Shown in pieces: positions 21,919 to 39,108 of a DNA stretch of 39,108 bases (within the stretch, counting starts at the first letter, position 1; every line of letters starts with the position of its first letter). The notes below the pieces were generated by a model. It saw only the letters and a list, made by a program, of their open reading frames with translations, ran no database searches and had not been told where the DNA came from. The DNA lies in IMG/VR virus record IMGVR_UViG_3300032797_000576, positions 1 to 39,108 of that record; one strand, given 5' to 3'. The position numbers and the translations under genes were made by a program. This DNA is from a virus.

Positions 21919-24900
21919 ATGGCTAAGACCATTGAGCAGGCGCTGGCGGAACTCCGGGGCGGGGCGTCCATCGAGGACGCGCTGGCGCTTATGCGCGCTA
22001 CGCGGGAGCGGCCGCCGGTCGGTTACCGGCTGGGGCGTGGGCGGGTAGAGGCAGTCAGGGAGATACCCGCAGAGTGGTTTCCGGGGTATCCGGGCCAGGC
22101 ACCCATCTCGGAGCCGGCTATGCCAGCGCCGCCGTTCCAGCCGCTTATGCCGGTGGGGGCAGTGGACCGGCCTCGTCCCCAGAGCAGGCGCCAAGCCGGC
22201 CAAACCTTGCCGACTCCGGTTGAGACATCGGAGCAACGGCTGAGGCGCCTATATCCGTGGTATGAGCAGCAGGTGGGGATACCGTCGCGGGCGGAGAGGG
22301 GGCTTGCGGCGGAGCAGTTCACGCCGGAGCAGGCGGCGCTGCTGAGGCAGTTGCCGCCACTGGGGCCGCGGACGATTCCCGTTGACATCGGCCTGCCGGC
22401 ACCGGTGTCGGTCCCGGAAGAATCCGTACTCGGCAGGGTTGCCCTGTCGCCTTTCGGGCGGTTCCTAGGTTCCGCGAGGGAGGCCGCGCAGAGGGCGTTA
22501 CTCGCGGAGGATGTCGAGTTTCCGCAGGAGCCAGTAGTGGGCGAGGCGTTGGCCGAGAGAGCGGGCCGCTTCGTCGGTGGACCGCTAGGCTTTATGCTGA
22601 TGCCGGGAGTGGGGCCGGCCTGGGAGATGGGGCAGACGCTGACGATGGCGAAGTCCCCGTGGTCGGTCGGGAGGTTGTTTGGCCCGGGAGCGGTCAGGCG
22701 GACGGCGGAGGTGGCGCAGTCGCAGTTGGGCCCGGGCGCGGCCTTCGCCGAGGCGGAGGAGGTGGCGAGGCAGGCGGCGCAGAGAAAGTTGGAGCTGGCG
22801 CGGCTAGTGACCGCGCCGCTGATGGGAGCTGGGGGAGCGGCGGTGTTGGGGGGGGTGATCGGGGCGGGGACGGAGGCGTTGGGCGCAGGGGGCAGACTGC
22901 TGGGCCGCGCGCCGGCGCGGAGGGGGGTGGGGATAGAGCCAATCCGGCCGGAGGCGATCACCGCAGAGCCGCAGAGGGCGGCCATTCCTGAGCACACACC
23001 TGCGCCTGCGCCCAAGCCTCATCCCCAGGCTGTGCGGGTGGGAGTTCTGTCTGTTCCTCGGAGGCTGGGGGAGGCATTCACGGACCTGTCGCAGGGGTGG
23101 ATGACAGACACCTTCCCGGGCCCGGGTGGGACCGAGTGGGCAGAGGTGCGGCTGGACAGTGGAGAGGTGACGCACCGGCGAACGACTGATCTGGTCAAGA
23201 TGCCGGAGCCCCCGCAGATTCCAGCGCCCGCGCCAGCGGTGGTGAGGGAGCCGGCGCGGAGGGGAGTAGCGCGGCGGCCCACGCCACTCGTGCGGCCGGA
23301 GACGGCGGAGGAGGTGGTGGCCCGGGCGGCAGCGGGAGCGCCCGAGTTTGAGGCCTTTGCGCGAGGGGTGGCGCAGGATACCGGTGGGGAACTAGTCCTG
23401 CCGCCTGCTGGGGTTGTGAAGACGGCGGAAAGCCTGCGTGCCAATGCGACGCGGAAGGGGATCTCGCTGCTCGACCCGACTGATCACCGGCGGGCGACGA
23501 TCGTCGTGGCGAATGACGAGGCGCTGTTGCCGCTCGTGGAGAGGATGGGGCAAGAGGGCTGGAGAGTGCGAGACAGTCTGACCTCAGAGCGTGGATTGAA
23601 CGGGACGGGCTACCGAGGGCTTCACGCGACGCGCAGGGCGGCGGACGGGTTGAACGAGGAACTGATACTGACGACGCGAGAACTCTGGGAGCTGAAGAAA
23701 CGGCATGAGGGAGACTACATACAGTATCGGAACCTAGACTTCAATGATCTGGAGAGCGATCCAGGCCTTCGCGATGCGGTGATTGCTCACGAGGAGGGGA
23801 CGCGCGCTGGTTTCGATGGGTATGTATCGAAGATGCCAGCCGATCTGAGGTCGGCGATCTCGAAGGCGTCAAGTCGCACCGAGTCCATAACATCGCCGAT
23901 TGTCACGTCGCCAGCGGGAGGCCTAACCCAGCGGCCGCCTTCTCTGACGAAGGCACCAGTGCTGGAGACCCAGCAGAGGCGGCCCGTTCCGTCGCGCAGA
24001 CGGCCGATAATCTCGGCACCTTCGGAAGCGGCCATCGCACCCTCCCAAGAACAGTATACCACACCGGGGGCGGAAGTCAAACCGGGAACGGCGGGATCTT
24101 CGGTCAGGGTGCGGACAGAGCCGGGGTCGGAGGTGCAGGCGCGCTACCGGGTGGTAGAGGCAGATCAGGTGATCGCGTCGAACCGCACGGACTTTTCCCG
24201 CGACCCGCGCCACCCGGAGGACCTGCAACCTGTGCCACCTCCGCTGAGGAAACGGGATGCGGCGGCCTTACAGGAGCACGTTGACCGGATGGCGCACGCG
24301 CTGGAACCTGACCGGCTGGGCGAGTGGCCGTTGGCCGACAATGGCGCGCCGGTGGTGGACGAACTCGGGAATGTGGTGGCGGGGAACGGGCGGGCGATAG
24401 CGGTGCAACTGGGATACCGGGCTTATCCCAACAGCGCGGCGGCCTACAAGGGGTGGCTCATCGGCAATGCGGAGAGGTTCGGACTGGATGCCGACGCAGT
24501 GCGTGGGATGGATCGCCCTATGCTGGTGCGGCAGGGGAGGTGGGCAGACGCGGAGAGCAAGATACAGTTCGCCCGGGAATCAGACATCCCAGCCACCGCG
24601 ATGCGGCCGGCGGCGGAGGTGGCACAGGCAGACGCCAGACTGATTGGGGATGAGGTGCTGTCTCGCTTCGTACCCAATGACCAGGGCAACGTCAACACGG
24701 CCGCGAATGCCGACTTCCGGCGGGCATTCCTGCAGCGGGTGGTCACAAGCCCGACCGAGCGCAACGCTATGCTGCAGGCGGACGGGACCTTCTCGCAGCA
24801 GGGCATCGAGCGCGTGCGGGCGGCACTGTTTCAGAAGGCGTATGGGAATGCGGACCTGTCGGCGCGCCTGACGGAGGCGACGGACGAGACCGGCCTGGGT

Positions 24901-27900
24901 GTGCTCAAGGCGGCCTTGCAGGCGACGCCGCTGGAGGCGGCGAGGTTCTTCCGCCGGGAGGGGATGGGAGCAGAGGAGGTCCGGGCAGAGGGACTGGAGA
25001 TCACACAGCCTAACATCGAGCGCGGCCTGGCGCTGGCGCGGTTGGGAGACGTGGCCTGGGGAGCGGTGGACAGAGGCGAGGTGGGGGCACCCTACGGGGC
25101 GGAGATCGGGCGGGCGTTCCCGGACGATCCGGTGATGCAGGACAGGGCGATATTGAGGCTGCGGGAACTGGGCGGGAGGCGGAAGGTCAGCCCGAACGGG
25201 TTTGCGAATCTGCTGGCGGATATGCGAAGAGTCGAAGAGGCTCGCCCGCCACGGGCGGGTGAGACTCGACGAGTTGAGGGAGCGGCCGCGGCGGCTCCCG
25301 CAACAGAGCCAGCGGCGAGGTGGGAGACGGAGGAGGGGCGGCGGGAGGGCCTAGCGGCGATGGAACGCCCCCAGCGCAGTCCGTTCGTGAAGCCAGCGGG
25401 CGGCCGGATCCTGGAGTTCCGGGAGGGGGCGAAGGGGGACCGCTACTACTATCGGGAGGGCCCGGGCAAGGACGTGCTGAGCGTTCCGGCGGATGTGTGG
25501 CCGGAGATCGAGGCGCGGTACAAAGCTGAGGGGTGGACGGTCGCACGGAACCGGAACCTGCGGCTGGCGGTGAGGCAACTGCCGCAGGGGGTACAGGAGC
25601 GGATAAAGGCCAGACGGGGTGCGGGGATTCGAGGAGTTGGGGAGATGGAGGCAGAGCCGGGTCCCGCGCCGGAGCATCGAGAGGCACTGATGGGCCGGCG
25701 ATCCTACATCGCGGAGCACCTGCGTGCTGAGGGCATCGTGGAGGGAACACAGGAGGCGCGGACGCGATCCGCCGAACTCGAAGCGGTGCACCGGACGGCG
25801 GTGGAAGCCGCGTTGCGGGGTGGGCAGATCACGCCGGAGCAAGCGTCGGATGTTGGGCACTTCGTCACCTACCCGCAACTGGCGGAGAGGTACGGGATGG
25901 GGCGCGGGGAACGGCCGGGGCCCCGAGTGGTAGAGGCGCCAGACGCGGAGCGGCGAGCGGCGCGGCAGGAGCGGATCGCGGAGCACCGGGCTTACTTCGC
26001 GAGCAAGCGGGGGCAGCGGGGCCGAGCACTGATGCCGGGCGGCGACCGGAACCCCTACGCGGGGGAGGATGCCGGCCTTGGTCAGGACCTTTATCACGCG
26101 TTCGCGCTCGGAAGGGAGCTGGTGGGTGAGGGGACGGACAACTTCAAGGTCTGGTCCGCGCAGATGGTCGAGCACTGCGGCGACTGGGTGAAGGAGCACC
26201 TGACGCGGCTGTGGCATGAGGTGGTGAGGGATTGGCAGCACTCCCCGCGGGAGGAGCGGGCGCCGGGCGAGAACATCATGCCGGGGGCGACGGTTTTTGC
26301 GGCTGACCGGCAGAACTACGGCAAGGTGGTCTCGGTAAACGAACCGGCAGGGGAGGCACGGGTTCACTTCGTCAGCCCGGAGGGGACCGAGGCGACGGTT
26401 GATCTGCCCATGGGGCAACTCACCGACGTAGGCGGCAGGGCGGCCCGGGCTTACGAGATGATGCTGGAGGTGCCGTCGGCGAGCGACGCGCCGGCGGAGA
26501 TGATCGAGAAGGCGAAGAGTCAGTTCGTTACCCGGCAGCAGGCGCGCCAGCTCAAGCAGCCCGCGCTGAGCCTGACGCGTTGGTATCAAGGCTTCACGAA
26601 GATGATTGCCAACACGAATATCTCGCTCGAGAATGCGATGGGCGCCGTAAACCGGATCATCAAGACGGCGCGCACCGACCCGGAGGCGGTGGGGCTGGCG
26701 AAGGATGCGGCCAATACGATGAAGCGCGCGGCGACGGCGGCCGGGTGGCAACTCCACAACGCGGAGAAGGACGGCTGGTATGGACCCCAAGAACCCCTGC
26801 CCGATGGGACACTGAGAAGTCGGAAGGTGGGGATGGGGATGGAGGAGATATACTACCTGGCAGTGCATGGCAGGGAACCACCGCGGGGACTGGCCGCAGT
26901 GGAGGAGGGGATACGGAGGGCACTGCACCCCGAACAGGATGTGGTGGACCGCTTCAAGCTCTACTCCGCGATGCGGCGCATCCGCGAACTCCAGCAGAAG
27001 GGGATGGACTTCGGGCCGGTGTTCACACCGCGGTTTGTCGAGGACATCATCCGAGTGACGCAGACGCCCGAGTTCGAGCGGGCGCATGGCGAGCTACAGA
27101 ACTGGTTTCACCAGGCGCGGCTGGTGGTAGAGGAGAAGCAGTGGCGGGGAAAGGGGTGGGCGGACGGACTGCGGAAGGACCACCCAAACTATCTGCCCGC
27201 CGTGCGGGAGATCGTAGAACCCTACCAGGCGCAGGGGGGTGGGTGGATGAGGCCGGACCAGGCGGTGCCGGAGCTGATCCAGCGGATACGCGGCGGGGCC
27301 TTGCTGATCCGCGATCCGTTCTCACAAGCCATCGCACAGACGCGGGCGCTGCTCGAGATCACGCACCTGTGGGAATCGCGCCGCCAACTCATCGAGGGAG
27401 TGAGAGAGGCGAGAAAGATCAACCCGGGGATCGCGGACCAGATCGCCAGGGAGCTGACGCCGGAGGAGTTGCCGACTGCGCTTACGCCGGAGCAAGCCAC
27501 TCGAGTGGCGCAGGCACTGATAGACGAACTAGTCAATGCGGAGGGGGAGGCGAAGCCGATCACGCAGGAGGCGGTCAAGGCCGCGCTGTATGGCCACCAG
27601 ATCTGGTCGGAGGCGGCGGGGGGCAGGGTGCCGCCGAATGTGCTGCCGGTGATGGAGCGGGGGAAGGTGACGTGGTGGCAGTTTCACCCGGATGTTTTCG
27701 AGGTTTACGCGGAACCGCGGCAGGTGATCCCACCGAAGTTATCGCGCTCTTTGCCCTGGGAGGTGATGCGAGCTTTCAAGACGTTGAAGCAACTGGGAAC
27801 CACGGTCTACAGCACCGCGTTTCAAGCCAGCAACTTCAAGCGGGACCTGGTGGACGCTATCATGCAGTCGGAGCAGGGCTTTGGGATACTTCGGGAGATG

Positions 27901-29499
27901 GTGACGGCGATCCGGGAGGCGGCGACAGGCGGGGAGAGGTATCGGGCGGTGGGCCGCGCGGGCGGTTTCCAGGGAGGGACGCCGGCGCGGGCGATGGAGA
28001 TGAGCACTCTGGGGGCGGGCCTGGAGCCGACGATAGGCGGCAGGGCCGTAGCGGGCGCGGCGAGGGCGTGGACGGGGATACGGCCGCGCCTGGGGGCGGC
28101 GGCGGACCCGATGGAGGGGATGTGCCGGGTCCTGCGCACGGCCACCCGACTCGCATATCAGGGTGTGAGGGGCGCGGCGCGGGTGGTGCGGGAGATCGGC
28201 GAGAGAGGGGAGCAGATCCCGCGCCTGGCGTCTGCCCTGGCCGAGGAGAAGGCTGGAGCGCGGCAGGGTCTCTCCGTAAGGGAGAGAACGGCAAGAGCCG
28301 CGCTCCAGGCCCGTATTTCGACCCTGCCCTTCGAGGAGGGCGGATGGTTGACCCGCATCGTAAACGACATCCGCGCGTTCACCAGCGCGCAGGTGCAGGG
28401 ATGGTACACGCCCTTCCGCGTCTTCGCCGAGCATCCCTTGCGGACGGCGATCAGGGGGACCCTCGCGATCACCATCCCGCAACTGATTTCCTACGCCTGG
28501 AACTACAACAACCCCGACTACCACAACCTCCCAGCCTACCGGAAGTATGGCTTTCTGAACATCCCCGTGAATCGGGTTCCGGGAGCGAGACTCCTTCCGT
28601 ATACCTGGATATTCGGGAGCCAGCAGGGAGAGACGATCTGGCTGCACCTCCCGATGGTGTGGACCTGGGGTGTGCTGTTCGGAGGGGCCCCAATCGCTGC
28701 CCTGGAGGCGATGCTGAAAAAGGACCCGCAGGCCGCGAGTGAGTTTGTCGGGCAGGCGTGGAATGGGCTGAGCCCGCTCAACACAGGGCTTGAACTCAAG
28801 GAGACCGGAGGTGTCGGCGGAGCAATTGAGCAGGTCCTGGGAGCTGGCGCCCGAAACCTCCCGGACATTTTCACACCGGGGGCCGGGTTGTGGGCGAACC
28901 AGGACTGGAACGGGCGACCCATCGTGCCGAGTTGGGAGCAACGGGAAGCCCCCGAAAAGCAGGTCAGCGACTATAACAGTGAACTGGCGCGGTACATCGG
29001 GCTGCGTGTGCCAGGAGGAATGTCGCCTCGGAAGGTTGACTATCTGCTGGACCAGTACGGCGGCAATGTCGGGAAGATGGTGAGGGGACTCACCGACAAG
29101 GCGATAGCGGAGGGATCGGGGAAGCCGGTCGGGATCACGCCTCAGAAACCGACAGGCCCAGGGGAAACAATCCTCCCGCGCAGGTTCTTCTCCACAGCGA
29201 GCCGGAGTAGCGACCTGCGAGAGGACTTCTACGCCGAGTTCGGCCGCCTCGAAAAGGTGGACTCCCGGTACAAAGACGCCGAGGATATCCCTGAGGAGGT
29301 GATCGGCGACCTGGATCGGTACGACGAGGCGAAGGCGGTGCGCCAGCAACTCACGGACATCTCCGCCGACCGCAAGGAGATTCTGCGAAGCGACGCCGGC
29401 AAAGAGGAGAAGCGGAAGCAACTGGCGGAGCTCACAAACGAGGAGACGGTGCTGCTCTCGGAGTTCCTGGGCAAGCCGGCACCGGCCTGGGCGCAATGA
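21919..29499 (+). CDS. Giant polyvalent protein (RelA/SpoT-like, ddrB-ParB and LPD38-like domains)
   Basis: 2526 residues, a fifth of the genome; ATG 21919 with a weak ribosome site. Visible parts in order: a short helical start; Pro-rich linkers; a small beta domain (about 378-428); a RelA/SpoT nucleotidyltransferase-like domain (about 496-605: DHRRATIVV, GYRGLHAT, EELILTT); a ddrB-type ParB domain (from about 742: RYRVVEADQVIAS, GAPVVDELGNVVAGNGRAIA) with its helical extension to about 1103; a helical domain (about 1389-1435: GRELVGEGTDNFKVWSAQMV); an SH3-like barrel (about 1454-1505); long helices; and an LPD38-like end (about 2174-2290: WNYNNPDYHNLPAYRKYGF). Such proteins are thought to be injected with the DNA to disarm the host. 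A palindrome at 25241-25263 is translated in frame. Confidence 0.85.
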   Translation: MAKTIEQALAELRGGASIEDALALMRATRERPPVGYRLGRGRVEAVREIPAEWFPGYPGQAPISEPAMPAPPFQPLMPVGAVDRPRPQSRRQAGQTLPTPVETSEQRLRRLYPWYEQQVGIPSRAERGLAAEQFTPEQAALLRQLPPLGPRTIPVDIGLPAPVSVPEESVLGRVALSPFGRFLGSAREAAQRALLAEDVEFPQEPVVGEALAERAGRFVGGPLGFMLMPGVGPAWEMGQTLTMAKSPWSVGRLFGPGAVRRTAEVAQSQLGPGAAFAEAEEVARQAAQRKLELARLVTAPLMGAGGAAVLGGVIGAGTEALGAGGRLLGRAPARRGVGIEPIRPEAITAEPQRAAIPEHTPAPAPKPHPQAVRVGVLSVPRRLGEAFTDLSQGWMTDTFPGPGGTEWAEVRLDSGEVTHRRTTDLVKMPEPPQIPAPAPAVVREPARRGVARRPTPLVRPETAEEVVARAAAGAPEFEAFARGVAQDTGGELVLPPAGVVKTAESLRANATRKGISLLDPTDHRRATIVVANDEALLPLVERMGQEGWRVRDSLTSERGLNGTGYRGLHATRRAADGLNEELILTTRELWELKKRHEGDYIQYRNLDFNDLESDPGLRDAVIAHEEGTRAGFDGYVSKMPADLRSAISKASSRTESITSPIVTSPAGGLTQRPPSLTKAPVLETQQRRPVPSRRRPIISAPSEAAIAPSQEQYTTPGAEVKPGTAGSSVRVRTEPGSEVQARYRVVEADQVIASNRTDFSRDPRHPEDLQPVPPPLRKRDAAALQEHVDRMAHALEPDRLGEWPLADNGAPVVDELGNVVAGNGRAIAVQLGYRAYPNSAAAYKGWLIGNAERFGLDADAVRGMDRPMLVRQGRWADAESKIQFARESDIPATAMRPAAEVAQADARLIGDEVLSRFVPNDQGNVNTAANADFRRAFLQRVVTSPTERNAMLQADGTFSQQGIERVRAALFQKAYGNADLSARLTEATDETGLGVLKAALQATPLEAARFFRREGMGAEEVRAEGLEITQPNIERGLALARLGDVAWGAVDRGEVGAPYGAEIGRAFPDDPVMQDRAILRLRELGGRRKVSPNGFANLLADMRRVEEARPPRAGETRRVEGAAAAAPATEPAARWETEEGRREGLAAMERPQRSPFVKPAGGRILEFREGAKGDRYYYREGPGKDVLSVPADVWPEIEARYKAEGWTVARNRNLRLAVRQLPQGVQERIKARRGAGIRGVGEMEAEPGPAPEHREALMGRRSYIAEHLRAEGIVEGTQEARTRSAELEAVHRTAVEAALRGGQITPEQASDVGHFVTYPQLAERYGMGRGERPGPRVVEAPDAERRAARQERIAEHRAYFASKRGQRGRALMPGGDRNPYAGEDAGLGQDLYHAFALGRELVGEGTDNFKVWSAQMVEHCGDWVKEHLTRLWHEVVRDWQHSPREERAPGENIMPGATVFAADRQNYGKVVSVNEPAGEARVHFVSPEGTEATVDLPMGQLTDVGGRAARAYEMMLEVPSASDAPAEMIEKAKSQFVTRQQARQLKQPALSLTRWYQGFTKMIANTNISLENAMGAVNRIIKTARTDPEAVGLAKDAANTMKRAATAAGWQLHNAEKDGWYGPQEPLPDGTLRSRKVGMGMEEIYYLAVHGREPPRGLAAVEEGIRRALHPEQDVVDRFKLYSAMRRIRELQQKGMDFGPVFTPRFVEDIIRVTQTPEFERAHGELQNWFHQARLVVEEKQWRGKGWADGLRKDHPNYLPAVREIVEPYQAQGGGWMRPDQAVPELIQRIRGGALLIRDPFSQAIAQTRALLEITHLWESRRQLIEGVREARKINPGIADQIARELTPEELPTALTPEQATRVAQALIDELVNAEGEAKPITQEAVKAALYGHQIWSEAAGGRVPPNVLPVMERGKVTWWQFHPDVFEVYAEPRQVIPPKLSRSLPWEVMRAFKTLKQLGTTVYSTAFQASNFKRDLVDAIMQSEQGFGILREMVTAIREAATGGERYRAVGRAGGFQGGTPARAMEMSTLGAGLEPTIGGRAVAGAARAWTGIRPRLGAAADPMEGMCRVLRTATRLAYQGVRGAARVVREIGERGEQIPRLASALAEEKAGARQGLSVRERTARAALQARISTLPFEEGGWLTRIVNDIRAFTSAQVQGWYTPFRVFAEHPLRTAIRGTLAITIPQLISYAWNYNNPDYHNLPAYRKYGFLNIPVNRVPGARLLPYTWIFGSQQGETIWLHLPMVWTWGVLFGGAPIAALEAMLKKDPQAASEFVGQAWNGLSPLNTGLELKETGGVGGAIEQVLGAGARNLPDIFTPGAGLWANQDWNGRPIVPSWEQREAPEKQVSDYNSELARYIGLRVPGGMSPRKVDYLLDQYGGNVGKMVRGLTDKAIAEGSGKPVGITPQKPTGPGETILPRRFFSTASRSSDLREDFYAEFGRLEKVDSRYKDAEDIPEEVIGDLDRYDEAKAVRQQLTDISADRKEILRSDAGKEEKRKQLAELTNEETVLLSEFLGKPAPAWAQ
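25226..25241 (+). repeat. GAAGAGTC-GAAGAGGC repeat pair
   Basis: Two 8-base units inside the giant gene, directly before the palindrome at 25241-25263. The same pair occurs at 33623-33638, and five related units occur at 35609-35648. Confidence 0.5.
25241..25263. repeat. In-frame palindrome in giant gene
   Basis: CTCGCCCGCC and GGCGGGTGAG around ACG: 10-bp arms with one G-U position. The same CCCGCC-NNN-GGCGGGTGA core recurs at 3282-3296 (non-coding) and 33880-33896 (ribosome site of another gene). Here it encodes the linker peptide ARPPRAGE just after the ParB-like part. Confidence 0.65.
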
Positions 29500-29604: not shown

Positions 29605-31098
29605 TCAGGAGGCGAGGCGAAGTTGGCGGAGTGTCTCGGCTACCCCGGTACAATCCCTTGTGCTGGCTGAAAGGCTTGCGGCGGGGTAGTGGATGGTAAG
29701 GCGGAGGGTGCGATCAGGGTGGATCACTAGGGCGGAGAAGAGGTCGGCCAGGAGGTCCTTCTTCCGCTGGGGGGGTACGTCGGGGGATTCCAGGAGTTCA
29801 GCCAGGCCCCGGAAGAGGCGGCGCAGGGGGCGAATCGCGGGTTCTGAACGCGAGATGCCGGCCAGTGTCGCCTGACGGTCAGCTCCTTCGCGGTCCAGGG
29901 CGGCGAGGCCGCGCTTGAGATCAGCATCGGAGATCACCGCCCGCCCTGCCAGGTCGAGGAGGCGCTGGCGCCGGGCTGCCAGAGCAGACAAATCGGCCTC
30001 CAGCAGCCGGTGTTCGTCGGAGCGATCATCGGCGGGCCCTGCCCAGGTGATGGGTCCCAGGTCGGCGCCCCGGCGGGAGAGATCTCGGATCCCGTTGAGC
30101 AGGATCTGGTGCGCCTTGGCGACGCTGAGCCAGGAACCCCGACAGCCGCCGGTGTGGGAGCGCGAGCACTCGTAGTTCCCCACCTCCCGGCCCAGCGCGG
30201 GGGAGGTCGAGTGGTGTCCGGCCATGGGGCCGCTGCAGTGGCGACAGCGCAGGATGCCGGAGAGCAGGTATCCCTCCGACCGCGCGCCGACACGGCGGCG
30301 GGAAGCTATGATGCGCTGCGCTTGATCCCAGGTATCCTTGTCTACGAGGGGTTTGTGCCGGCCGGGGTAGAGTTCACCGTTGTGGGGGATAAGGCCGAGG
30401 TAGACCGGGCGGGAGAGGAGACGGGTGAGCTTGCTCGTGGGGATGGTGCGACCGACGAGGGCGGATATGCGCTTGGCGACCTGATAGGCGGGCAGGCGGT
30501 CGCGGACATAGAGGCGGTAGGCGAGCCGGACGGCGGGGGCGTGATGATCGGGGCGCAATATACCTCCGGTAGATTTGTACCCCAGGGGAGGGCGGCCGAA
30601 CCAGTTGCCGCGGGCGGCTTTCAGGGCCCGGGCGTCAGCGACGTTCTCGCCGGTGACTTCGCGCTGGAGGGCGGCGAAGGTGGCGGCCATCCCGAGCAGA
30701 GCGCGGCCCATGGCACGGGTGGTGTCGAACTCCGGTTCTGAGGTGGAGACGAAGGCGAGGCCGGCTTTCTCCAGGCGTTCGAGGATGAGGTGAAGGTGGA
30801 GGGGCTTGCGGGAGAGGCGGTCGAGTCTATAGACCAAGAGGGCATCCGCAGGTTGCAAACCTGCGCCACGGGAGCGGGGGAGCCGCGAGAGGAGGCGCTG
30901 GAGGCCGGGGCGCTGCCAGCGGGCGCCGGAGAGGCCGGGATCGGAGTAGAGATCGAGCAGGTCGTAGCCGTGATCCCGGCACCAGGCCTGAATGTGGTGG
31001 GCTTGCATCTCCAGGGAGATGCCGCCTTCGGCCTGCTCCCTTGTTGAAACCCTGGAATACCCGATGGCGCGGGGGCGGTCTAGCCTGGCCTTACCCAC
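29605..31098 (-). CDS. int: Large serine recombinase (integrase)
   Basis: 497 residues from GTG at 31098 (reading left). Integrates and excises the prophage between attP and attB. The catalytic domain shows YSRVST with nucleophile S18 and R16, and YRLDRLSR (90-97). A recombinase domain follows (GRPPLGYK, then RLYVRDRLPAYQVAKRI), then a zinc ribbon with C285, C288, C311 and C319, and a coiled-coil C-terminus. The same frame stays open upstream as far as 31878, but that part is Arg/Pro-rich and overlaps real genes in other frames, so I reject it. A palindrome at 30847-30865 adds GAGLQPA (78-84) before the catalytic DALLVY strand. Confidence 0.9.
   Translation of the reverse strand: MGKARLDRPRAIGYSRVSTREQAEGGISLEMQAHHIQAWCRDHGYDLLDLYSDPGLSGARWQRPGLQRLLSRLPRSRGAGLQPADALLVYRLDRLSRKPLHLHLILERLEKAGLAFVSTSEPEFDTTRAMGRALLGMAATFAALQREVTGENVADARALKAARGNWFGRPPLGYKSTGGILRPDHHAPAVRLAYRLYVRDRLPAYQVAKRISALVGRTIPTSKLTRLLSRPVYLGLIPHNGELYPGRHKPLVDKDTWDQAQRIIASRRRVGARSEGYLLSGILRCRHCSGPMAGHHSTSPALGREVGNYECSRSHTGGCRGSWLSVAKAHQILLNGIRDLSRRGADLGPITWAGPADDRSDEHRLLEADLSALAARRQRLLDLAGRAVISDADLKRGLAALDREGADRQATLAGISRSEPAIRPLRRLFRGLAELLESPDVPPQRKKDLLADLFSALVIHPDRTLRLTIHYPAASLSASTRDCTGVAETLRQLRLAS
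30847..30865. repeat. In-frame palindrome in recombinase gene
   Basis: 8-bp arms CGCAGGTT/AACCTGCG around GCA. Translated on the minus strand as GAGLQPA, between a helix and the strand that carries DALLVYRLDR. Usual serine recombinases have no such insert there. I recall similar CGCAGGTT-type palindromes as dispersed repeats in some uncultured bacterial phyla; this is memory, not a search. Confidence 0.65.
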
Positions 31099-31376
31099 TG
31101 GGCATTCTCGTCCATGATCTCGACTCGGCCGGTGATACGGTGGGTGCGGAAGGGACCGAACTGGGAGTCGTGACCGTAGATCCAGGGCGTGGGCCAGACC
31201 AGCCACCAGAAGAGTACGACGAGGAGCGCGAGGCCCGCGATGCGCGCGACCGCGGCGTTGAAGACAGACCTGAGAACGGCCCAGCGCCAGCCGGGCTTGC
31301 TGGCGAAGTAGGTCCGGGCCTCCTCGATCTCCTGGTGCCGCGCGGCTCGGCGGTCTGCCTCTGTTTGCCCCATCAT
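31080..31376 (-). CDS. One-pass membrane protein between repressor and integrase
   Basis: 98 residues; ATG ATG start at 31376 behind a good AGGAGAGG site. A charged helical N-terminus (DRRAARHQEIEEARTYFASK), one membrane span (about 45-65, ARIAGLALLVVLFWWLVWPT) and a small polar C-terminal part (GRVEIMDENAQWV). Its place inside the lysogeny block means it is probably expressed in the prophage, where such proteins often exclude other phages or alter the host. No family recognised. It overlaps the recombinase start by 19 bases. Confidence 0.65.
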   Translation of the reverse strand: MMGQTEADRRAARHQEIEEARTYFASKPGWRWAVLRSVFNAAVARIAGLALLVVLFWWLVWPTPWIYGHDSQFGPFRTHRITGRVEIMDENAQWVRPG

Positions 31377-31388
31377 TCCTCTCCTCTC

Positions 31389-31776
31389 CTATCTGCGCCG
31401 CTTCTGGGTTGGCAGGCGCTTGATGATGATCTCGCCAGTGCGGCGGTTCTCCGTCACCTGGGCGGGGTATTCCACGGCCTCCTCGGCGACCCCTTCCGGG
31501 GCCTTCACGATTGCTATGCGGCCTAGAGATTGTGCGTTCGGGTTTCGGGGGGGGGGGTTCGTAGCCAGCGGCTTCGAGCCAGGGAGTGGGGTCTTCGCCA
31601 AGGTTTCGCGCTCCCTGGAGGATCATCTCCCTTGGGGGGACCACCCCGCCCTGCTCCCAGGCGGAAACGTAGGAGCCGCTGACGCCGAAGAGGCGGCCGA
31701 AGGCGGCCTGGCTCATATCGCCCCGCCGTTGCCGCACCAGGGCCGCCCAAGCATCGCTGAACCGTGTACGCCTCAT
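31389..31776 (-). CDS. XRE-family repressor (CI-like), frame broken at a run of 11 G
   Basis: ATG at 31776 starts an HTH protein (FSDAWAALVRQRRGDMSQAA, then FGRLFGVSGSYVSAWEQGG), the expected lysogeny repressor. After residue 73 the frame enters a run of 11 C (11 G on the plus strand). As written, it then runs into Arg/Pro-rich sequence without a stop and would reach the recombinase. With one base fewer it enters another frame that gives a sensible end (QSLGRIAIVKAPEGVAEEAV, then TGEIIIKRLPTQKRRR) and stops at 31389. The 128-residue product would suit a small repressor. Either a sequencing error or a phase-variable tract explains this. It is divergent from the Cro-like gene. Confidence 0.7.
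31547..31557. repeat. Homopolymer of 11 G in repressor gene
   Basis: Eleven consecutive G on the plus strand (C in the repressor's reading direction), the longest single-base run I noticed. Ten bases would join the two frames of the repressor; eleven would not. Confidence 0.85.
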
Positions 31777-31782
31777 ATCGTC

Positions 31783-31813
31783 ATTGTACCACTGTCCTGC
31801 CAGAATCATGCAA
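31783..31813 (-). promoter_or_regulatory. Candidate repressor promoter, leaderless message
   Basis: Reading left: TTGCAT (31813-31808), 19 bases, TACAAT (31788-31783). The -10 box ends 6 bases before the repressor ATG, so transcription should start at or next to the A of ATG, as in the lambda maintenance promoter. The spacing is longer than ideal, which fits a weak promoter that depends on an activator. Confidence 0.5.
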
Positions 31814-31833
31814 GAAAGTTGTTGACAGTGTAC
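31786..31833. promoter_or_regulatory. Candidate operator pair between repressor and Cro-like gene
   Basis: GTACCACTGTC (31786-31796) and GACAG-TGTAC (31824-31833) are inverted copies apart from one missing base. The first overlaps the leftward -10 box and the second overlaps the rightward -35 box, where an operator for a lambda-type switch is expected. Another TGTACG lies just inside the repressor gene (near 31766). Confidence 0.45.
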
Positions 31834-31850
31834 GGGAGTTGTGGTATTGT
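31822..31850 (+). promoter_or_regulatory. Rightward early promoter (PR-like)
   Basis: A perfect TTGACA (31822-31827), a 17-base spacer and TATTGT (31845-31850; 4 of 6 to consensus). This is the best sigma-70 type promoter I see in the window. It would drive the Cro-like gene and the rightward early genes. Confidence 0.7.
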
Positions 31851-31881: not shown

Positions 31882-32109
31882 ATGGCGATTCGAGAGGCGG
31901 AGTTGACGGGTGCGGATATCAGGGCGGAGCGGAATCGGCAGACACCGATCGTGACGCAGGAGGAGCTGGCGAAGGGACTTGACCCGCCGATCTACACGCA
32001 GACGGTGGGTCTGATCGAGGGCGGGGAGATCGAGGTGACGCAGGGGCAGTTGCAGGCGATGATGGAGGCGATCCGGCGCGTGGTCGCGGAGCGGGAACAG
32101 GCGCAGTGA
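31882..32109 (+). CDS. Cro-like HTH regulator
   Basis: 75 residues, ATG 31882, 8 bases after AAGGAGG; a longer in-frame start at 31852 lacks a site. A single helix-turn-helix: IRAERNRQTPIVTQEELAKG, then YTQTVGLIEGGEIEVT. Opposite and next to the repressor with promoters in between, it fits the Cro role of shutting off the repressor and favouring lytic growth. It overlaps the next gene by 4 bases (GTGA). Confidence 0.75.
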   Translation: MAIREAELTGADIRAERNRQTPIVTQEELAKGLDPPIYTQTVGLIEGGEIEVTQGQLQAMMEAIRRVVAEREQAQ

Positions 32110-34644: not shown

Positions 34645-35718
34645 GTGCCTGAATGGGCGGTGTTCGACGACGCGGCGCTGGCGAAGGGGTACACGGTGGT
34701 GCCTAACGTCCTCTTTGACATGGCGGGGTTGCCGCCAGCGGCCCGGTTTCTCTACATCGTGCTCTTACGGCATGGGAAGACGGAGAATGCCGCTTATCCG
34801 AGCCATACAATCCTGATGCGGGAGCTCGGCGCGGCCGAGAACAGCGTTCGGGCCTGGCTCATGCAGCTCGAAGGAGTTGGTTTGATCGCCAGAGAGAAGC
34901 GGGTGGGCAGGCTCGACGTGATCCGATTTCTTCCCCTATCAACCGCGGTCGCGGTGGTATCAAAATCTGATACCCCGGCAGAAAGTGAACCCCCTCAAAA
35001 TCTACCGGACACCCCCTCAGATTCTGAGGGGGTTCCGCGGCCAGGCCCCTCAGATTTTGAGGGAGGTATCCTTATAGAAGAAAACGGCCGTAGAAAGGAT
35101 AGAACTCCCGTAGGGGTAGGCCGGAAGCGTCGGGTATCAGAAACTGCGCTCACCTGCGACCAAGCGGCGCTGATGCAGGAGTGCGTGGATCTCTACTGGG
35201 AGCGGCTGAAGCAACACACCGGAGTCCCCCGGCCGCGGTGGCTGAGCAAGGGGAGCTCGAGGCGCGCGGGAGGAGCGGTGGCGGCCTTCTTCCGCGAGCA
35301 GATAGTGGACCCCGAGATGCAGTTCACCCGGGAGGATCTGCTGGGGATCATCGGCCTGTTCTTTGATTCGTGGGTTCACCCGGAGGGGGCGGCGAACTTC
35401 GACTACTTCATGCGGAGCTGGAACGCGCTGCTAAAACGCTGGGCGAGGAGGCAGGGAGATGCGCACGGTGGGGCCGACAGAGGAGAACCGCGGACGACGG
35501 CGCCAGCGGCTGCCGTGGCGATCGCGCGGCCGCCTCTCGCGGGAGGCGTTCAGAGAGGTCTACGAGCGGTCAGTGCATCGGTTGCCCGGGGAGTTGAGGA
35601 ATCTCATCGAAGAGGCGAAGAGGCGAAGAGGCGAAGAGGCGAAGAGGACGCCGAGGCAGGGGACGGTCGTCAAGGGGATCGCGGGGATGGGGGAGGTGTT
35701 GGAGGCGATGGGGACTGA
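34645..35718 (+). CDS. Replication initiator with HTH domain
   Basis: 357 residues, GTG 34645 behind GGAGG. N-terminal winged helix of the type used by phage replication initiators (residues 28-90: AARFLYIVLLRHGKTENAAY, ILMRELGAAENSVRAWLMQL, GLIAREKRVGR). A Pro/Ser/Asp linker (about 108-160) is encoded by iteron-like DNA repeats. A second helical domain follows (about 170-272, ECVDLYWERLKQHTG to NALLKRWARRQ), which may bind helicase or loader. The last 85 residues are Gly/Arg/Asp-rich, overlap the gene at 35459 in another frame and include an 8-bp repeat, so the true end is uncertain. Confidence 0.75.
   Translation: MPEWAVFDDAALAKGYTVVPNVLFDMAGLPPAARFLYIVLLRHGKTENAAYPSHTILMRELGAAENSVRAWLMQLEGVGLIAREKRVGRLDVIRFLPLSTAVAVVSKSDTPAESEPPQNLPDTPSDSEGVPRPGPSDFEGGILIEENGRRKDRTPVGVGRKRRVSETALTCDQAALMQECVDLYWERLKQHTGVPRPRWLSKGSSRRAGGAVAAFFREQIVDPEMQFTREDLLGIIGLFFDSWVHPEGAANFDYFMRSWNALLKRWARRQGDAHGGADRGEPRTTAPAAAVAIARPPLAGGVQRGLRAVSASVARGVEESHRRGEEAKRRRGEEDAEAGDGRQGDRGDGGGVGGDGD
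34956..35070. other. Candidate replication origin with iterons inside the initiator gene
   Basis: Four related copies of TCA(A/G)A(A/T)(T/C)T start at 34960, 34995, 35017 and 35050. The last three are preceded by CCCC and spaced 22 and 33 bases, multiples of 11. The copy at 35011-35033 is a perfect 23-base palindrome with one central base, and 34956-34974 is a 7-bp-armed palindrome beginning GGTATC, which recurs at 35065. The DNA right after (CTTATAGAAGAAAACGG) is A/T-richer than its surroundings. In lambda the origin likewise lies inside the initiator gene O. Confidence 0.65.
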
Positions 35719-35758
35719 TGCTGAATCTCCAGCCGATCACGCGCAGGGAGGCCAATGA
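35459..35758 (+). CDS. Small basic protein overlapping the initiator's end
   Basis: 99 residues, ATG 35459 with GAGGAGG 7 bases upstream, one of the best ribosome sites here. A basic start (NRGRRRQRLPWRSRGRLS) leads into a helical middle (REAFREVYERSVHRLPGELR, NLIEEAKRRRGEEAKR) and a short end with VVKGIAGMGEVLEAMG. It overlaps the initiator by 260 bases in another frame and the next gene by 41. Composition looks more protein-like than the initiator's tail. It may be the real gene here. Confidence 0.55.
   Translation: MRTVGPTEENRGRRRQRLPWRSRGRLSREAFREVYERSVHRLPGELRNLIEEAKRRRGEEAKRTPRQGTVVKGIAGMGEVLEAMGTDAESPADHAQGGQ
35609..35648 (+). repeat. 8-base tandem repeat (five units of GAAGAGGC)
   Basis: Four exact units and one ending in A. 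Because 8 is not a multiple of 3, gain or loss of a unit shifts the frame of both overlapping genes. Related units occur at 25226 and 33623. Confidence 0.8.
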
Positions 35759-36167
35759 GTTCGTGCGACAGCACCACCGCCACCATCGGCCAGACCAGGG
35801 ATTCAAGTTCGCGGTGGCCGTGAACGACGGGGAGAAGGTGGTGGGTGTGGCGGTGGTTGGGAGGCCCCGAAGCCAGCGCCACCGGGACCATGCTTACACG
35901 CTTGAGGTCACACGTCTCTGCACGGACGGGACCTCGAACGCGGTGAGCAAACTCATGCGAGGCGTGAGGCAGGCCGCGGTGGGGATGGGATACCGGAGAC
36001 TTATCACCTACACCCTACCCGCCGAGGGCGGAGCTTCGATGCGAGGTAGCGGGATGCGGGAGGTAGGGTTGCGCGGCGGGCAGAGTTGGAGTGCACCGGA
36101 GAGGGGGCGACCGCGGGTAGACACTCCCCTGCTGGGGCAAAAGGTGCTGTGGGAAGCGCTCTTATGA
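35718..36167 (+). CDS. XF1762 family protein
   Basis: 149 residues, ATG 35718 sharing a base with the initiator stop (TGATG). The family pattern is clear: ITRREANEFVRQHHRHHRPD, then GFKFAVAV, EKVVGVAVVGRPRSQ, LEVTRLCTDGTSNAVSKL, GYRRLITYTL and a final SGMREVGLRGGQSW. The family is frequent in phages and mobile elements and has a GNAT-like look; no substrate is established. It is part of an overlapped run with the ASCH and RuvC-like genes. Confidence 0.85.
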   Translation: MLNLQPITRREANEFVRQHHRHHRPDQGFKFAVAVNDGEKVVGVAVVGRPRSQRHRDHAYTLEVTRLCTDGTSNAVSKLMRGVRQAAVGMGYRRLITYTLPAEGGASMRGSGMREVGLRGGQSWSAPERGRPRVDTPLLGQKVLWEALL

Positions 36168-38567: not shown

Positions 38568-39076
38568 CGACTAGCTTTCGGTTGCTGCACCAGGCTGGCG
38601 CGTGCGAAGATCGTTACAGAGTTCTGGCCGCCGCGCTAGGCGGCGTGGGCTTCTACGGTCGCGACACCCCAATCACGATCCTGCAGATTCTGGCCGCGAA
38701 CGGATTGGACGATGCCCTATGGGCGCTGTGCGCGGTCGAGCAGCGAGCGGAAGGGGATCGGTTCTCGCGTCTGCTGGCCTGCGACTACGCAGAGCATATT
38801 CTGCTCGCCGCGTGGGATGAGGTCTGCCCCGACGACAGAAGGCCGTGGGATGCCATCACAGCCGCGCGCAGGCATCTCGCGGGAAAATGCACAAAGGCGG
38901 AACTCGATGCCGTCCATGCCGCCGCCGATGCCGCCGATGTCGCCGCCGCTGCCGCCGCCTATGCCTCCGCCTATGCCGCCCGTGTCGCCCGTGTCGCCGC
39001 CGATGCCGAACGCGCCTGGCAAGAAGACCGGTTGAAGGAAATGCTCGCGGCGGCGGAGGGGAAGGAGGCGAAGTGA
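38561..39076 (+). CDS. Ala-rich phage protein (complete copy)
   Basis: 171 residues, ATG 38561 behind AAGGAGG. The N-terminal part is a recognisable phage pattern (TTSFRLLHQAGACEDRYRVL, then FYGRDTPITILQILAANGLD, DALWALCAVEQR, CDYAEHILLAAWDEVCPDDR, then RPWDAITAARRHLAGK). I recall this pattern in phage and bacterial proteins that databases label putative immunity protein, but I cannot confirm it. The last third is an Ala-rich helix repeat (30 codons here, 48 in the left-end copy). It overlaps the previous gene by 7 bases and the next by 1. Confidence 0.75.
   Translation: MLTTSFRLLHQAGACEDRYRVLAAALGGVGFYGRDTPITILQILAANGLDDALWALCAVEQRAEGDRFSRLLACDYAEHILLAAWDEVCPDDRRPWDAITAARRHLAGKCTKAELDAVHAAADAADVAAAAAAYASAYAARVARVAADAERAWQEDRLKEMLAAAEGKEAK
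38918..39007 (+). repeat. GCC-codon tandem repeat, short allele
   Basis: The 30-codon form of the repeat seen with 48 codons at 86-229. It keeps the same frame. Confidence 0.85.
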
Positions 39077-39108
39077 TGAGTGAGTGTCCGAATGGCGACC
39101 CCTATTAC
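39076..39108 (+). CDS. Start of the Cys-containing protein (cut by window edge)
   Basis: The first 11 codons (MSECPNGDPYY) of the gene found whole at 298-636. It begins at the ATG sharing its A with the stop of the Ala-rich gene. Confidence 0.8.
   Translation, partial: MSECPNGDPYY

Follow-up and report, generated by a model that had tools for sequence, protein, structure and literature searches.

Organization of the immunity region

The stretch of DNA analyzed here (the window) is record IMGVR_UViG_3300032797_000576 of IMG/VR over its whole length of 39,108 nucleotides. On its minus strand lie a putative lysogeny repressor gene, a gene encoding a small membrane-type protein and the gene for a large serine recombinase, which together would form a leftward operon facing a rightward early promoter (Table 1). 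The locus is an otherwise normal immunity region with a divergent promoter.

Table 1. Features of the repressor-integrase region, in window coordinates
Feature	Position	Strand	Basis or remarks
Large serine recombinase (integrase)	29605..31098	-	Probable GTG start at 31098, which lies inside the end of the 98-aa gene
98-aa protein with one hydrophobic stretch, between repressor and recombinase	31080..31376	-	Own frame; ribosome site AGGAGAGGAGAGG
C-terminal half of the repressor (other frame), with a predicted beta hairpin and a basic tail	31389..31546	-	Codon-position GC, codon score, low-confidence model; stop 31389-31391
Run of 11 G	31547..31557	+	Encodes proline linker; PPP is residues 74-76 of the 128-aa reading
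Repressor N-terminal half, XRE-type helix-turn-helix (HTH), 73 codons from ATG 31776	31558..31776	-	Pfam, PHROG, fold model
Candidate leftward -10 TACAAT, TG-extended, located 6 bases ahead of the repressor ATG	31783..31788	-	Tentative; sequence reading
Candidate operator GTACCACTGTC	31786..31796	+	Sole exact match of GTACNACTGTC in the window; weak
Rightward early promoter TTGACA-17-TATTGT, TG before the second hexamer	31822..31850	+	10/12 matches; 0.1 expected in shuffles
Candidate operator GTACACTGTC, inverted, overlapping the -35 hexamer of the rightward promoter	31824..31833	-	Sequence reading; related ACAGTGTACG copy; weak
First early-operon gene, 75 aa, possible Cro-like HTH protein	31882..32109	+	Divergent position, coding frame

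The N-terminal half of the repressor matches Pfam HTH_31 at 7.4e-8, with both HTH_31 and HTH_3 above cut-off, and the protein matches PHROG transcriptional repressor families that include phrog_5301, a profile of 132 positions and hence similar in length. Its HTH region is modelled as a five-helix fold with a mean pLDDT of about 90 across residues 11-70, and the structure matches include the P22 c2 repressor (E 0.014, among the top matches) and C.AhdI, with a Foldseek probability of 1.00 but E values of about 0.01. The Pfam match, the five-helix model and these structure matches identify a lambda-repressor-like HTH domain. Three distant HTH homologues are 120-127 residues long and none of those examined is fused to a recombinase. 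In its HTH fold, similar profile length and divergent early promoter the protein thus resembles the single-domain XRE/HTH repressors (PHROG 5301, PHROG 2328 and the DNA-binding domain of P22 c2), but it differs from them in the long C tract of its linker and in its C-terminal 52 residues, for which no homologue was detectable. The frame of this C-terminal half therefore rests on codon statistics and on a low-confidence model that predicts a hairpin at residues 105-120.

The recombinase has the domain composition of a large serine integrase, with Resolvase (1.5e-35), Recombinase (9e-9) and Zn_ribbon_recom (1.5e-6) all above the Pfam cut-off, and it matches the integrase family phrog_95 at 4e-91. 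The 98-aa gene that precedes it yielded no family match for its product and carries a strong ribosome site directly before its ATG. Repressor and serine integrase genes that are adjacent or close together are a normal layout, as in Virgibacillus phage Mimir87, Parageobacillus phage NIIg3.2 and Brochothrix phage BL3, where the repressor likewise lies upstream of the integrase on one strand; the early genes of Mimir87 and NIIg3.2 are also divergent. The window differs from these three phages in the intervening 98-aa gene and in its integrase, which is just 26-29% identical to theirs, and the Mimir87 repressor is annotated as a LexA family protein.

The putative leftward -10 hexamer lies so close to the repressor ATG as to suggest that the repressor transcript is leaderless. 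The lambda cI message is leaderless. Two oppositely oriented GTAC(N)ACTGTC sites occupy the intergenic region and might act as operators, a role read from their sequence; the evidence for it is weak because the motif, when mismatches are allowed, is not enriched across the window. The 75-aa early protein has no family match in Pfam or PHROG and gives a helical model of low confidence (pLDDT 63).

The right end of the record (38833-39108) repeats the left end (1-330) and is identical to it save for in-frame gaps of 45 nt and 9 nt, which fall in a GCC-rich, alanine-coding array and represent two alleles of that array. With two repeat lengths held in one record, there is repeat-length heterogeneity in either the population or the assembly. 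The record is probably a complete genome of about 38.8 kb that closes on itself, circular or circularly permuted, and its classification as linear may be due only to the differing array copies. As the sequence closes on itself with the recombinase in mid-sequence, and attP usually lies beside the integrase gene, the DNA appears to be that of a free rather than an integrated phage. The genome also encodes an SU10-like portal, a DNA methyltransferase (1069-2424), a product (35718-36167) that matches a PHROG family named Mom-like DNA modification protein at 1.1e-27, and a 2526-residue protein (21919-29499) whose N-terminal part, tested over 21919-24900, matches PHROG families of unknown function (phrog_5143, 6.4e-55). 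Rfam and tRNA searches found nothing.

Reading frames across the run of 11 G

By direct count the tract has 11 bases, which are C on the strand that encodes the repressor; the longest of the remaining homopolymers in the window has 8. The XRE-type HTH half and the 52-residue C-terminal half of the repressor sit in different frames that are joined by the tract, the length of which sets the reading frame, as at a contingency locus. With one base removed, the HTH half reads on to the stop at 31389-31391 and gives a protein of 128 residues. At the recorded length, a single open frame reaches the end of the serine recombinase at 29605 and encodes 757 residues from ATG 31878 or 723 from ATG 31776. 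The first-pass annotation had described this arrangement, with the two halves in different frames and G11 between them, and its coordinates and lengths are correct in the light of the homopolymer count, the frames and the codon statistics. Translation and the codon signature of each half likewise uphold its claim that one base fewer restores the 128-residue repressor, and the open frame of 723 residues that it ascribed to the recorded tract lies within the 757-residue frame in the list of open reading frames.

Codon scores trained on confident genes from the same window place the HTH half best in frame 0, where GC content by codon position is.70/.56/.78. Past the tract this coding pattern is gone from frame 0 (.77/.65/.46), and the next 52 codons score best in offset 1 (.65/.46/.79), with 4.4 bits vs -18.4 for frame 0. 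Offset 1 is again the best for the 90 codons that begin at 31376 (.64/.50/.88; 12.1 vs -36.7 for frame 0), the 98-aa gene having a GC3 of.88 in its own frame and a codon score of 0.13 vs -0.41 for the frame that continues into the recombinase. The coding signal of the recombinase is back in frame 0. Overall, a model with a one-base shift outscores the unshifted one by about 24-31 bits; most of the remaining gene joins in the window are clean stop/start overlaps.

Codon statistics alone bound the frame break only to somewhere within about 31545-31623. The HTH match and the predicted fifth and last HTH helix (residues 64-70) extend to residue 70 and are followed by a GY landmark common to the distant homologues. 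Homology and fold thus push the frame shift to the tract itself or to within about 15 bases of it.

A further possible disruption lies elsewhere in the genome. The coding signature of a 357-aa replication-type open reading frame is lost near 35460 while the frame itself remains open across another gene as far as 35718, and its end may represent either a second frame disruption or a natural, unconserved tail. Positions 35608-35647, within a 99-aa gene (35459-35758), consist of the 8-base unit CGAAGAGG repeated five times without a mismatch. A change of one unit would shift the frame, and this array is therefore a second potential site of slippage in the genome.

Origin of the eleventh base

The reading that we favor, with a probability of roughly 0.77, is that an ordinary repressor has been thrown out of frame by an assembly miscount or a one-base slip and that the long HTH-recombinase frame plays no part in the biology of the phage. 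On this reading a free temperate phage would carry, in its immunity region, an ordinary repressor of about 128 residues with a single HTH domain, and the C tract would encode a flexible proline linker joining the DNA-binding domain to a short C-terminal element. The out-of-frame length would stem either from a miscount of a long homopolymer in the assembly or from a one-base slip in the virus that was sequenced; in the second case the virus would be a repressor-off variant (clear or virulent). Taken jointly, assembly error and neutral slippage of this kind are the most likely explanation for the eleventh base.

The length of the tract is compatible with chance in DNA as GC-rich as this. A run of at least 11 occurs in 34, 11, and 11% of simulated windows of the same composition under Markov models of order 1, 2, and 3, respectively, so that the tract is not longer than expected in the manner of a contingency locus. 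The tract does write its three prolines entirely as CCC, a codon that accounts for 118 of 484 proline codons; three in succession would be expected at about 1.4% if codon choices were independent, a figure calculated post hoc that makes the triple use a mild oddity. Single colonies of meningococci commonly show length variation in tracts of 8 or more (PMC5084427), and slippage at a tract of 11 is accordingly to be expected whether or not it is selected.

The same observations enter into the first alternative, a selected phase switch, in which frequent one-base slippage in the C tract keeps repressor-on and repressor-off members in the population and hedges between lysogeny and lysis. The phage would then set lysogeny by a homopolymer contingency switch, each burst including some proportion of repressor-off, obligately lytic siblings. 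Besides the meningococcal precedent and the triple CCC, the repeat-length heterogeneity of the end array is consistent with a variable tract, and the C-terminal half is still open, so that any off state must be recent. A coding homopolymeric G/C tract whose length sets the frame is also what characterizes the poly-G/C contingency loci of Neisseria and Campylobacter. Unlike at those loci, however, the tract here is compatible with chance in its length and is known from one record, and the one-way loss of a repressor yields virulent mutants without any selection for switching. No relative with the tract was found (see below) and literature searches gave no described phage repressor of this kind. 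A selected switch is on balance unlikely.

Much less probable is a +1 shift by ribosomes at the C11 proline codons, by which the 128-residue repressor would be made from the genome as recorded. CCC proline codons are known shift sites: the Listeria phages PSA, A118, and A500 shift +1 at CCC_UGA, and Escherichia coli pheL shifts at 15% (PMC5009743). A CCC site is present at the tract, the useful frame lies at +1 as in the Listeria phages, and one extra base read there gives exactly the 128-aa protein. The shift sites of tsh and pheL adjoin a stop codon (PMC5009743), whereas the zero frame here has none after the site; the main product would be a long nonsense fusion that crosses the 98-aa gene as well, and a true tract of one base fewer would make any shift unnecessary.

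Finally, a genuine HTH-recombinase fusion of 723 or 757 residues is scarcely credible as a product and was rejected: although its frame is open from ATG 31878 or 31776 down to 29605, a coding signature is absent from that frame across 31105-31545 but clear in another frame, the 98-aa gene has its own ribosome site, and the N termini of serine integrases fall at or close to the residue that aligns with RAIGYSRVST of the window, the region where the alignment to three phage serine integrases begins. As the codon signal moves frame and the 98-aa gene separates repressor from recombinase, the fusion raised in the first-pass annotation is best regarded as an annotation artefact.

Relatives and implications

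Viral contigs scanned with the repressor, recombinase, terminase, portal and 2526-aa protein yielded no relatives, and neither did genome contigs and phages searched with the repressor. The terminase and recombinase have only distant matches in annotated phages. Profile scans recovered recombinases at only 23-35% identity, and none of their loci contains a G or C run of at least 9. Exact sequence patterns taken from the vicinity of the tract and of the early promoter had no match, and about 400 genomes in each of two phyla returned general HTH proteins only. Across viral contigs, genome contigs, phages and exact patterns, no repressor relative with a comparable tract was found.

If the tract truly varied in the population, it would constitute a heritable, reversible switch between temperate and virulent states, for which our literature searches gave no described precedent. 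On the favored reading of an ordinary repressor put out of frame, the consequences are for annotation. A single homopolymer base makes pipelines bury the repressor in a recombinase of 757 residues, a false protein as had been foreseen, given that the fusion frame lacks a coding signature and a separate 98-aa gene lies within it, and that gene is lost at the same time. With the repressor hidden and the 98-aa gene erased, the lifestyle predicted for such a virus would be wrong.
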